Below, in pieces: positions 11,051-48,742 of a stretch of 51,705 nucleotides of DNA. The position numbers were made by a program, and so were the translations under genes. Under the pieces are notes generated by a model. The model searched no databases. It was not told the DNA's origin and saw nothing but the letters and a program-made list of their open reading frames with translations. Source of the DNA: Acidobacteria bacterium RIFCSPLOWO2_02_FULL_61_28 (GTDB taxonomy: Bacteria > Acidobacteriota > Terriglobia > 2-12-FULL-54-10); NCBI GenBank assembly GCA_001767035.1, contig MEKR01000095.1, positions 1 through 51,705 of the forward strand, given 5' to 3'. Position 1 is the first letter of the stretch. Each line of letters starts with the position of its first letter.

Positions 11051-11083
11051 GGGTAGCCACGGCACGCTGTTTGTGCCGTGGGT
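11051..11083 (+). repeat. REP-like palindrome (family A), singlet
   Basis: gggtagccacggcacgctgtttgtgccgtggg; GTAG foot plus CCACGGCAC/GTGCCGTGG stem. Confidence 0.85.
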
Positions 11084-12587: not shown

Positions 12588-13934
12588 ATGAGCGAAGCAG
12601 CATCGGCCTCCGCAGCACAGACCGAATCCCAGCCCCCCATCGTTCCCATTGACCAGATCGCGCGCTGGGAAGGCAAGCCCGTCACCATCCGGGGCTGGCT
12701 CTACAATCTGCGCGCCTCCGGCAAAATCCTCTTCCCGATCTTCCGCGACGGGACGGGACTGCTCCAGGGCGTCATCGTGCAAAAGGCGGTTTCCCCGGAG
12801 GTCTTCGCCCGCGCCAAAGAGCTGACCCAGGAATCCTCGCTGATCGTCCGCGGAACGGTCCGCGCCGACACGCGCGCGCACGGCGGGTATGAGCTCGATG
12901 TTTCCGACCTCCAGGTGCTCCAGCTTGTTCCCGTGACCGATCCCTTTCCCATCACGCCTAAAGAGCACGGCGTCGAGTTCCTGATGGACCGCCGCCACCT
13001 CTGGCTGCGCTCGCAGCGCCAGAACGCCATCCTGCGCATCCGCCACGAGATTTCGAAAGCCTGCCGCGACTTCCTCGACCAGGAAGGCTACCTCCTCGTG
13101 GACGCGCCCATCCTGACGCCTGCGGCCTGCGAGGGCACCACCACGCTCTTTGAGACCGACTACTTCGAGGAGAAGGCCTACCTCACGCAGTCCGGGCAGC
13201 TTTACAGCGAAGCGACCTGCGCCGCCTTCGGGAAGGTCTATTGCTTCGGGCCGACCTTCCGCGCCGAGAAGTCGAAAACGCGGCGGCACTTGACCGAGTT
13301 CTGGATGGTCGAGCCGGAAGCGGCCTTCGCCACGCTCGACGACATGATGGACCTCGCCGAGCGCATGGTGACCTACATCGTCAAGCAAGTCCTCGCCAAC
13401 CGTCGCCGTGAGCTGGCCACGCTCGAACGCGATGTCTCGAAACTCGAAGGGATCGAGCCGCCCTTTCCGCGCATCACTTACGATGAAGCCGTCGAAATCC
13501 TCAAGCGCAAGGGCAGCGCGTATGAATGGGGCGGTGACTTCGGCGGAACCGATGAGACGCTGCTCGGCGAAGAGTTCACCAAGCCCGTGCTGGTGCACCG
13601 CTTCCCCGCAGCGATCAAGGCCTTTTACATGGAGCCGGACCCGGAGCGCCCGGAACTCGCCCTGGGCGTGGACATGCTCGCGCCGGAAGGCTATGGCGAA
13701 ATCATCGGCGGGGGCCAGCGCGCCGCCGACTTGAACTTGCTGCTCCGCCGCATCGAGGAGCAGAAGCTGCCGAAGGAAGCCTTCGACTGGTACCTCGACC
13801 TGCGCAAGTACGGCGCTGTCCCGCACGCGGGCTTCGGCATGGGCATCGAGCGCGTCGTGGCCTGGATTTGCAAGCTCGAGCACGTCCGGGAAACCATCCC
13901 GTTCCCGCGAATGCTCTATCGCCTGCGACCATGA
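12588..13934 (+). CDS. asnS: Asparaginyl-tRNA synthetase
   Basis: [31 protein letters not shown]...[32 protein letters not shown]...[23 protein letters not shown]...[36 protein letters not shown]. Confidence 0.95.
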
Positions 13935-13939
13935 AGCAT

Positions 13940-13971
13940 GGGTAGCCACGGCACGGTTTTTGTGCCGTGGG
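13940..13971 (+). repeat. REP-like palindrome (family A), left bracket of RAYT
   Basis: gggtagccacggcacggtttttgtgccgtggg; exact reverse complement of 14503..14534. Confidence 0.93.
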
Positions 13972-14001
13972 TTTGTTCTTAGATCGCAATGGGTTTTGCC
14001 C

Positions 14002-14499
14002 ATGTCGAACGTCAAGCGTCTACTCCTCAGCAACCGGACGTTCTTCGTCACTATAAATCTTCGCAAGAACCTCTCGAAGTTCAGCGATGAGGAATTTTCG
14101 CTGCTTCTCGCCGCAATCGAGGAATCCCGGCGCAAGCTGGCCTTTTCCCTTTACGGCTATGTGCTCATGCCGGATCATTGGCATGCATTGATCGGAGTGA
14201 GCAACCCGCTGACAGTGTCTCGCGTGGTGCAGAATATCAAGTGGATTTCCGCCCGCCGCCTCAACCGCCACAGAAACAGCGCCGGACCCTTGTGGCAGCA
14301 CCAGTTCTGGGATCGCTTCGTCCGTCACGACAAGGAATTCGGCCACCGGCTGGCGTATATGCACCTCAATCCCGTCCGAAAGGACCTGGTGAAACATCCC
14401 GAGGACTGGAAGTGGTCAAGTTATAATAATTTTTCGCTGGACCGATCTCTCGTGGCCAGTTGTCCCATTAGGATTGATTTTGTTGACGGTCTAAAATAA
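14002..14499 (+). mobile_element. REP-associated tyrosine transposase (RAYT, Y1/IS200-like)
   Basis: HUH motif in GYVLMPDHWHALIG; ...RVVQNIKWISARRLNRHR...LWQHQFWDRFVRHDKEFGHRLAYMHLNPVRKDLVKHPEDWKWSSYNNF with conserved Tyr. Confidence 0.93.
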
Positions 14500-14502
14500 A
14501 AG

Positions 14503-14534
14503 CCCACGGCACAAAAACCGTGCCGTGGCTACCC
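14503..14534 (-). repeat. REP-like palindrome (family A), right bracket of RAYT, inverted
   Basis: cccacggcacaaaaaccgtgccgtggctaccc; perfect 32-nt inverted match to 13940..13971. Confidence 0.93.
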
Positions 14535-14580: not shown

Positions 14581-15225
14581 ATGAAACTCTCCCACCAAGT
14601 GCAGTTTGTGGAAATGGAGTTTGTCAATCGCTGTGCAACCATAAGGTCCTTCTGTAGCAATGTGTACCCCATGCTGAAAGCTTCCTATGAAGTTTATGAG
14701 CACATTCGTGCGGAAGCTAGAGCGCGAGATATTGAGGCCGACGGGGACATCCCTAATGACGCGACATATGAACATGGTGAAGAAATCGAGGTGGCCTGTG
14801 AACAAGCCCCGGTTTCCGAAGCTATTGGGCTTGTGGGATTGTTTTCCCTTGTTTATATTGTGTGCGCTCTCGAAAAGTTCTTCGAAGCAGTTCTCAAATC
14901 GTGTGGCTGGAAGACACAAGAACCCCTCAAAATTAAACGTGCACTAGCAACCATTGAAAAAGAGGTGGGCGGAGAGGTATTGCAAACAGACGAACGGGAA
15001 CTGCTGAACGAGGTCATCAATGCAAGGAACGACTTCGTTCATCGGAGAGGCCGAGCAGACCGGGCGAAAAAGTTCGTCCGGGACTGTGGGGTTGATGCTG
15101 ATGGCAATCCCGTCCGTGAAATAAGCTTTACCCGCGAAAATGTAATAGAAGTCACGACTGAACTGGAAAGAATCTCCTCCCATTTAGTCGAGGGATGTAA
15201 ACCCTTTAGTGCTTCATTTCCGTAA
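14581..15225 (+). CDS. HEPN-like domain protein (putative)
   Basis: All-helical protein with Rx4H motif ELLNEVINARNDFVHRRGRAD; AT-richer than flanks. Confidence 0.55.
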   Translation: MKLSHQVQFVEMEFVNRCATIRSFCSNVYPMLKASYEVYEHIRAEARARDIEADGDIPNDATYEHGEEIEVACEQAPVSEAIGLVGLFSLVYIVCALEKFFEAVLKSCGWKTQEPLKIKRALATIEKEVGGEVLQTDERELLNEVINARNDFVHRRGRADRAKKFVRDCGVDADGNPVREISFTRENVIEVTTELERISSHLVEGCKPFSASFP

Positions 15226-15571: not shown

Positions 15572-15649
15572 GGGTAGCCACGGCACGCTTTTTGTGCCGT
15601 GGGCTTTTCCGGAACGACCCCACGGCATAAAGAACATGCCGTGGCTACC
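15572..15649. repeat. BIME-like pair of opposed family A REPs
   Basis: gggtagccacggcacgctttttgtgccgtggg-cttttccggaacga-ccccacggcataaagaacatgccgtggctacc. Confidence 0.88.
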
Positions 15650-15655
15650 AACACA

Positions 15656-18744: not shown

Positions 18745-20181
18745 ATGCCAGAAGCAATCTCGAATCCACTTCGGCCACTTGGAACCACGGGGCTTTCGTG
18801 TCACCTGATGGGCTTCGGCTGCTATCGCGTGATGGAAGGGAGCGCCCAGCACGAGGCCGCGCTGCGCGACTACCTCGAACGCGGCGGCAACCTGATTGAC
18901 ACGAGCGCCAATTACGGCGACGGGCGCGCCGAGACGCTGGTCGGGAAGGTGCTCCCGGATTTCCCGCGCGACCGCGTGATTGTCGTGACCAAGGGCGGCT
19001 ACATCCAGGGGCAGAACCTCGCGCTCGCGCGCCAGCGCAAGTTCCCGGAAGTGGTCCACTACGGCGAAGGGATTTGGCACTCCATTCATCCGGAGTTTCT
19101 TGAAACGCAAGTCGAGATGAGCCGGGAGCGGATGCGCCTCGACGTGATGGACGTCTATCTGCTCCACAACCCGGAGTATTACCTCGAAGACCAGGCGCAC
19201 CACAAGGCCGTTGGCGAAGCGGAGCACGAGGAGTTCTACCGGCGCGTCCGGGAGGCCTTCCGGTTTCTGGAAGCGAAAGTGGCCGAAGGGCGGATTCGCT
19301 GGTACGGGATCAGCTCGAACAATTTTCCCGCGCCGGTTTCGAGTCCCACCCGGACCAGCGTCGATCGCTGCTGGGAAGCGGCCGAGTCCATTTCGCCGAA
19401 CCATCATTTCCGCGTCGTGCAACTGCCCATGAACCTCTATGAAAGCGGCGGCGCGCTCGAACCGAACAACGGCGGCAAGACCGTTCTCGAGTTCTGCAAG
19501 GAGAAGGGCCTGGGCGTTTTGCTAAACCGCCCGCTCAATGCTTTTTTCAGCAACCGCATGATTCGCCTGGCGGACTTCCTGCGGCCCGGCCAGCCGCCGC
19601 CCGGCATCGAAGAACTCCGGGCCATCCTGGAACCGGTGCGGCGCATGGAGCAGGAACTCGAGGAGCAGCACGGCATCCCGCTTCTCTATGGCACTGGAAA
19701 AGGAATCGCGAATTACCTGGAAACCATCGTGCCGCAGATCAAGTCTCCGGCGCAGTGGGAGCAGGCTTTCTACGAGTACATCATCCTGCCGATCGAGCGC
19801 TGGGCCGTCGAGCGCCAGCAGCTTTTTGGCGGCACGGAGGAGTGGGATGGCTGGTGGAACCGCTTCTCCCAAAGCCTCCCGGCGGTTTTTGAAGAGGCGG
19901 AACGTTTTGTGGGTTGTTCGCAGCAGGCGGTGTCGAATGAAATCCGGGCACAGTTGCAGCGCGCGGGCTATCCGCCGAACGGCGAGACGCTCAGCCGCAT
20001 GGCCCAGAACGTGTTGCTCGGTCTCGACGGCGTTTCCTGCGTCCTGAACGGGATGCGGCGGCCCGCCTACGTCGCGGACTCGATGGGGACTATCACGCTC
20101 GAACCCGTGGACTCGCTCTCGGTCCTCTCGCGTTTCCGCCACCAGATGACGGCCGTGGAGCCGGTCGGTTCGATTCAGTAG
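18745..20181 (+). CDS. Aldo/keto reductase
   Basis: MPEAISNPLRPLGTTGLSCHLMGFGCYRVMEG..ALRDYLERGGNLIDTSANYGDGRAETLVGKVL...VIVVTKGGYIQG...RLDVMDVYLLHNPEYYL. Confidence 0.88.
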   Translation: MPEAISNPLRPLGTTGLSCHLMGFGCYRVMEGSAQHEAALRDYLERGGNLIDTSANYGDGRAETLVGKVLPDFPRDRVIVVTKGGYIQGQNLALARQRKFPEVVHYGEGIWHSIHPEFLETQVEMSRERMRLDVMDVYLLHNPEYYLEDQAHHKAVGEAEHEEFYRRVREAFRFLEAKVAEGRIRWYGISSNNFPAPVSSPTRTSVDRCWEAAESISPNHHFRVVQLPMNLYESGGALEPNNGGKTVLEFCKEKGLGVLLNRPLNAFFSNRMIRLADFLRPGQPPPGIEELRAILEPVRRMEQELEEQHGIPLLYGTGKGIANYLETIVPQIKSPAQWEQAFYEYIILPIERWAVERQQLFGGTEEWDGWWNRFSQSLPAVFEEAERFVGCSQQAVSNEIRAQLQRAGYPPNGETLSRMAQNVLLGLDGVSCVLNGMRRPAYVADSMGTITLEPVDSLSVLSRFRHQMTAVEPVGSIQ

Positions 20182-20186
20182 AAGCG

Positions 20187-20264
20187 GGTAGCCACGGCAC
20201 GTCTTGTGTGCCGTGGGTTCTTGCCGGAACATGCCCACGGCATAAACAACATGCCGTGGCTACC
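20187..20264. repeat. BIME-like pair of opposed family A REPs
   Basis: ggtagccacggcacgtcttgtgtgccgtgggttcttgccggaacatgcccacggcataaacaacatgccgtggctacc; same architecture and CCGGAAC linker as 15572..15649. Confidence 0.88.
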
Positions 20265-20276
20265 CCGATTCGCGGA

Positions 20277-48655: not shown

Positions 48656-48742
48656 TGGTAGCCACGGCATGTTTTTTATGCCGTGGGGACGTTCTCGTTC
48701 AGGCGAAAGACCGACGGCACGAAGAAACGTGCCGTGGCTACC
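48656..48742. repeat. BIME-like pair of opposed family A REPs
   Basis: ggtagccacggcatgttttttatgccgtggggacgttctcgttcaggcgaaagaccgacggcacgaagaaacgtgccgtggctacc. Confidence 0.88.

Follow-up and report, generated by a model that had tools for sequence, protein, structure and literature searches.

A RAYT gene between inverted GTAG hairpins in an acidobacterial genome: a probable REPtron and its dispersed hairpin family

Between the asnS gene and an arginase gene of an acidobacterial genome lies a small transposase gene, a RAYT (TnpA-REP), that is enclosed by two inverted copies of the same hairpin, or REP. The question raised by this locus is whether it is a REPtron, the transposase of which has supplied the genome with hairpins of the same family (family A), or whether the gene and the hairpins came together in some other way. 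We analyzed the locus within the whole stretch of 51,705 nucleotides on which it is located (hereafter, the window), which corresponds to contig C95 in an assembly of 3.86 Mb (199 contigs, 91.7% complete).

An earlier note on this DNA had described a perfect 32-bp inverted pair around the RAYT, and we found the pair to be exact (Table 1). Each REP consists of a perfectly palindromic stem of 9 bp, CCACGGCAC, a loop of 7 nt, and the tetranucleotide GTAG immediately 5′ of the stem; folded as single-stranded DNA, the left and right REPs gave equal structures of −12.3 kcal/mol (z = −5.3). The unit begins six bases past the asnS stop codon, and the RAYT open reading frame, with its ATG at 14002 and its stop at 14499, is separated from the left REP by 30 bp and from the right REP by 3 bp. 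No terminal duplications were obvious at the ends of the unit when the sequence was inspected by eye. The RAYT protein scored 111.8 bits against the NCBIfam model REP_Tyr_transpos, for which the cut-off is 80, and also matched Pfam Y1_Tnp. Its HUH motif is D58-H59-W60-H61, WQ is found at position 98, and the catalytic-type tyrosine, Y119, is contained within YMHLNP. The structure of E. coli TnpA-REP (PDB ID code 4er8) matched the protein at E = 3e-17, with the HUH motif, the tyrosine, W, and Q all aligned. The description of a 165-aa Y1 transposase with these catalytic residues thus stands, as does that of a complete REP-RAYT unit, in which a reading frame with a family match is found inside two inward-facing GTAG hairpins.

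Table 1. Positions of the REP-RAYT-REP unit, its left neighbor, and other family A elements in the window
Feature	Position	Strand	Details
Single CAC-type REP	11051..11082	+	2 mismatches to the 32-mer; a partner was searched for and none found
asnS (asparagine--tRNA ligase), left neighbor of the unit	12588..13934	+	NF003037, 548 bits
Left REP, CAC-type	13940..13971	+	Exact 32-mer GGGTAGCCACGGCACGGTTTTTGTGCCGTGGG; GTAG at outer end
RAYT (TnpA-REP), 165 aa	14002..14499	+	NF047646, PF01797; DHWH, WQ, and YMHLNP motifs
Right REP, same sequence as left, inverted	14503..14534	−	Exact 32-mer; GTAG at outer end
REPIN: CAC-type (+), CAT-type (−)	15572..15650	.	Fold −28.5 kcal/mol; arginase start codon ~6 bp past its end
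REPIN: CAC-type (+), CAT-type (−)	20186..20265	.	Begins 5 bp past a gene's stop codon; folds as a hairpin
REPIN: CAT-type (+), slightly degenerate CAC-type partner (−)	48658..48741	.	Hairpin scan and pattern search

Outside the unit, near copies of the 32-mer with one to three mismatches were found at 11051, 15572, and 20186, compared to none in shuffled windows. Similarly, a control scan of the window found eight strong hairpins after GTAG and 0–1 after each of 11 other tetranucleotides. The spacers of the two REPINs at 15572–15650 and 20186–20265 have a short CCGGAA core in common, which is possibly a conserved spacer like that of other head-to-head dimers. We also observed that REPs start 5–6 bp after a stop codon in two places, at asnS (13934–13940) and at the gene whose end is at 20181 (20181–20186).

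The strict family A pattern, GTAGCCACGGCA-N-TGCCGTGG, gave 152 exact copies in a pattern search of the genome, whilst the reversed control gave none; stems are intact in the 152 copies, and loop sequences vary between them. Statistics on stem types and pairs rest on 100 of the 152 copies, of which 52 have CAC stems and 46 CAT stems. These 100 copies include 31 close pairs (within 130 bp) that hold 61 distinct copies, one copy being shared by two pairs, and 30 of the 31 pairs face inward. The dispersed close pairs therefore have the layout of REPINs, i.e., two inverted, hairpin-forming REPs with GTAG on the outside. Moreover, the two stems differ in 29 of the 31 pairs (28 CAC/CAT and one CAC/CAG), compared to a mean of 16 and a maximum of 26 when the labels were shuffled. 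The pair flanking the RAYT is unlike these dispersed pairs, since it is CAC/CAC, with the loop included in the identity. Judged by eye among the matches listed, CAC/CAT pairs are frequent in other genera too.

The cause of such hetero-dimers was called not obvious in 2013, when protection from hairpin-cutting enzymes was proposed (Di Nocera 2013, PMC3733652). For the two intact REPINs in the window, we computed that one long hairpin is favored over two REP hairpins by 6.8–9.0 kcal/mol, and that the same gap would be 13.9–15.8 kcal/mol if both stems were CAC. A tentative idea, which we regard as possible but rather doubtful, is that the RAYT belongs to an acidobacterial subclass of its own (DHWH/WQ/YxHxNP) whose REPINs obey an unequal-stem rule, with CAC joined to CAT, the distant pair of the RAYT identical, and the mismatch freeing the small hairpins. 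The one-base-pair difference between CAC and CAT would weaken the long hairpin, so that the small hairpins needed by the transposase could form, and the REPs of the RAYT itself would not need unlike stems because they are more than 500 bp apart. This folding argument rests on the two computed REPINs and is offered as a test. Alternatively, as Di Nocera proposed, the unlike stems may protect against hairpin-cutting enzymes. If true, the unequal-stem rule would account for the hetero-dimers.

Two further homologs of the RAYT are encoded in the same genome. A second RAYT, on contig C188 (L012, G000:C188:12500-17000, 1904-2620), is 68% identical to the window RAYT and has lost its C-terminus to an early stop, although a C-terminus similar to the normal one can still be recognized in a shifted frame 3′ of the stop. 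GGCGA-type REPs, a type with only 15 copies genome-wide, enclose this gene; a GGTCAATTG REP is located just 5′ of it. The window RAYT itself is present as one identical copy per genome, the C188 gene with its other hairpin being the sole close paralog. The third homolog, on contig C183 (L013, G000:C183:7500-11500, 1094-2029), is a distant Y1 transposase (28–32% identical) that is flanked by a different perfect hairpin, GTAAGGGCACGGTTTCAACCGTGCC, in four copies within 1 kb, arranged as two inward pairs. Repeats similar to GTAAGGGCACGGTTTCAACCGTGCC surround homologs in two other genomes (L110 in G003 and L108 in G005), and the C183 locus may be a further system of the REPtron-like or TIRYT kind, the third in this genome.

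The RAYT has its nearest relatives in uncultured Acidobacteriota, many of them named Terriglobia. An inward-facing pair of REPs within 220 bp was found at 19 of 39 non-redundant RAYT loci from relatives. REPs of one locus are alike (mean 0.69, versus 0.30 when permuted; p = 5e-5), and identical flanking pairs occur in three separate lineages (the window locus, L045, and L090). Since the matched flanks differ between relatives, they point to a common constraint on the flanks. Across the 19 loci, RAYT identity and REP similarity were correlated (Mantel r = 0.85, p = 2e-4, uncorrected for kinship), as they were within the close clade (0.69, p = 6e-4) and the remainder (0.79), again uncorrected for kinship. 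In the RAYT tree, the genes with CGACGAG-/GGYGAG-type REPs (L012, L045, L046, and L047) cluster separately from those with CAC-type REPs. RAYT position 75 (V/A versus L) splits the CAC- from the GAG-type, as does, by eye, position 81 (W versus Y/S), both in nine sequences in which the split is confounded by phylogeny. Searching the genome and its relatives for the 32-mer and the RAYT, as the earlier note had suggested, has thus tied this clade to its hairpins through matched flanks, co-variation, and two RAYT/hairpin pairings in one genome. However, a cross-search with cognate types showed that hairpin specificity is only loose. CGACGAG REPs are present in G187 and G111, which have the cognate RAYTs, yet six are also found in G004, which has no close RAYT; GGTCAG REPs are most numerous in G183 (34 copies), the RAYT of which has one nearby as well as CAC/CAT REPINs. 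On contig C6 of G183 (L076), the RAYT is located between two complete CAT/CAC REPINs and is without a close REP pair, and 25 family A REPs are found in that genome besides those of the GGTCAG type.

We consider it very probable that the unit is a REPtron, in which the RAYT nicks and joins single-stranded REPs, moves REPINs in trans, and has populated the genome with family A. The layout would be that of a REPIN with the RAYT gene as its spacer and the GTAG ends outward. TnpA-REP is known to recognize one strand of a folded REP, including GTAG, and to cleave and rejoin it (PMC8266576; PMC6006769). Likewise, the RAYT would recognize the single-stranded REP through the GTAG foot and the stem-loop, Tyr119 would nick and join REPs in the manner of IS200/IS605-type enzymes, and small inverted REP dimers would be moved or copied in trans whilst single-stranded, with the ~150 family A copies in the genome as the outcome. 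We infer DNA cleavage by this RAYT, mobility of the dimers, and a causal role of the gene in the copies; that it is the driver of family A, as the earlier note had thought, is likely, but the link is a correlational one.

If the RAYT is the driver, how closely does family A follow it in relatives? The genomes available for comparison were mostly incomplete assemblies. Among 399 genomes of the class, the RAYT (E ≤ 1e-25) was detected in 35, family A REPs in 30, and both in 14, a co-occurrence (Fisher p = 6e-9) that is uncorrected for kinship and in which family f4 is dominant. Nor is the tie between family A and the window RAYT a strict one. The earlier note expected these palindromes not to be common in genomes without this RAYT clade, an expectation that holds only in part: they are present in four genomes of the same family that have no close RAYT (G001, G003, G005, and G006, with 24, 8, 14, and 4 copies, respectively), one of which, G005, is 100% complete, but those copies are few compared to the 152 here and are mostly single. 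Family A is also absent from five of 14 genomes with a close RAYT, whose RAYTs may serve other hairpins. We considered whether a distant Y1 homolog of the RAYT-less relatives (31–37% identical) could be the driver of their family A copies, which is unlikely, given that its flanking sequences contain another hairpin, or repeats of other kinds, in place of GTAG REPs.

The single copies in these relatives would fit remnants left after loss of the RAYT, much as REP singlets of Pseudomonas have been proposed to be decayed remnants (PMC3116915). They would also fit the competing explanation that fares best, although we think it unlikely, namely that the RAYT has been domesticated and has lost REP mobilization, its copies being old and kept for host functions. 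That the gene is single-copy and that the loops vary would agree with domestication, whereas the intact stems of the 152 copies do not, and REPs are often joined in intact dimers here but seldom so in the RAYT-less relatives (62 of 100 listed REPs paired, versus 4 of 32 listed; p = 1e-6, where 62 counts two members per pair and the use of 61 distinct copies leaves the result unchanged).

The insertion site bears upon another explanation. Among the loci of the class that we examined, 13 have the asnS-arginase neighborhood, and the gap between the genes is 22–733 bp (90 bp in G004, a member of the same family), compared to about 1.7 kb here. The extra DNA comprises the REP-RAYT-REP unit, two open reading frames without a clear family, and the REPIN before the arginase start. 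One of these frames, at 14581–15225 between the unit and arginase (214 aa), has weak HEPN-like and PhoU-like matches, and no Pfam family scored above the cut-off for it. Because the space is usually short in relatives and extra DNA is present here, the unit was likely inserted into an older asnS-arginase gene pair. The empty site anticipated at asnS can therefore be recognized at the level of gene order, but not base by base, as the sequences downstream of asnS in the same family do not align. Such an insertion would also be expected if the whole 595-bp block were an autonomous IS200-like insertion sequence that moves as a unit with the REPs as its ends, and matched inverted ends in many relatives, together with RAYT loci that are placed differently between genomes (in G002, the RAYT is not on the contig that carries asnS), are in keeping with this. 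We nevertheless regard it as improbable, since there is one RAYT copy per genome, the only close paralog is diverged and has its own hairpin, and REPtrons appear not to move as units in the literature (PMC6006769). Hardly credible, finally, is the idea that the hairpins are host terminators or mRNA stabilizers that spread by other means and that the RAYT inserted between two of them by chance, because, even though REPs do lie just past two stop codons, those of asnS and the gene that ends at 20181, and relatives without a close RAYT hold some copies, a chance landing leaves matched flanks that track the RAYT across the class unexplained, and each of the two RAYTs in this genome has its own hairpin type.

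The REPtron is therefore our preferred reading, and an ordinary one of known kind: the unit has the Y1 core, inverted GT(A/G)G flanks, a dispersed and abundant REP, a single copy per REP type, and the co-evolution by which a RAYT/TnpA-REP is recognized. As far as we found, it is new to Acidobacteriota. A survey in 2013 reported GTAG REPs in Proteobacteria, Cyanobacteria, Chloroflexi, and the PVC group, but not in Acidobacteria (PMC3733652), and a limited search of the open literature found no GTAG REPtrons in the phylum. Based on the subclass motifs in Table 1 of PMC6006769, the DHWH, WQ, and YMHLNP of the RAYT differ both from those of subclass 2.5 (Bertels group 3; DH[LF]H, WQ, and YI[VI]ANP) and from those of subclass 2.2 (Bertels group 2, E. 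coli; DHLH, WE, and YIHYNP), which also has a bulged REP, whereas the stem here is perfect. The RAYT fits no TnpA-Y1 subclass in that table and, judging from its motifs, may represent an undescribed one. GTAG REPtrons are thereby extended to a phylum in which the surveys that we consulted had reported only other arrangements. In addition, two related RAYTs with different hairpins in one genome, along with dozens of matched relatives, constitute a natural experiment, in which the RAYT-REP specificity code and the reason for hetero-dimers become directly testable.

Amongst known systems, the E. coli REPtron (4er8; Y, Z1, and Z2 REPs) provides the nearest solved structure. The earlier note's comparison with E. 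coli TnpA-REP is valid for the GTAG foot, which adjoins the stem in both, but not for the hairpin: E. coli REPs are bulged, whereas the REP palindrome in the window is perfect and bulge-free, as in group 3 systems. Similarly, E100-H101 of the E. coli protein corresponds to D-R in the window RAYT, as in subclasses 2.5 and 2.7. The TIRYTs of Acidobacteria (Di Nocera 2013, PMC3733652) are related tyrosine transposases of the same phylum, and the C183 homolog has terminal inverted repeats of that kind; unlike the window unit, TIRYTs are without GTAG REPs. The REP-rayt-REP units of Stenotrophomonas, Pseudomonas, and Xanthomonas (Nunvar 2010, PMC2817692) are alike in that the RAYT is always enclosed by two inverted GT(A/G)G REPs, and show RAYT-REP co-evolution, REP dimers, and about tenfold more REPs where a RAYT is present, just as REPs are more numerous with the RAYT here. 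That study found no RAYT homologs outside of gammaproteobacteria and a few recipients, whereas the present clade is acidobacterial and has the motifs DHWH/WQ/YMHLNP. Lastly, the REPINs of P. fluorescens SBW25 (Bertels and Rainey 2011, PMC3116915) are likewise inverted doublets with GTAG outward that were proposed to be the mobile unit, and each of the several RAYTs of SBW25 is associated with a REPIN type of its own, as is the case here; the difference from SBW25 is that the doublets of the present genome are nearly always CAC/CAT, whilst the pair around the RAYT is CAC/CAC.
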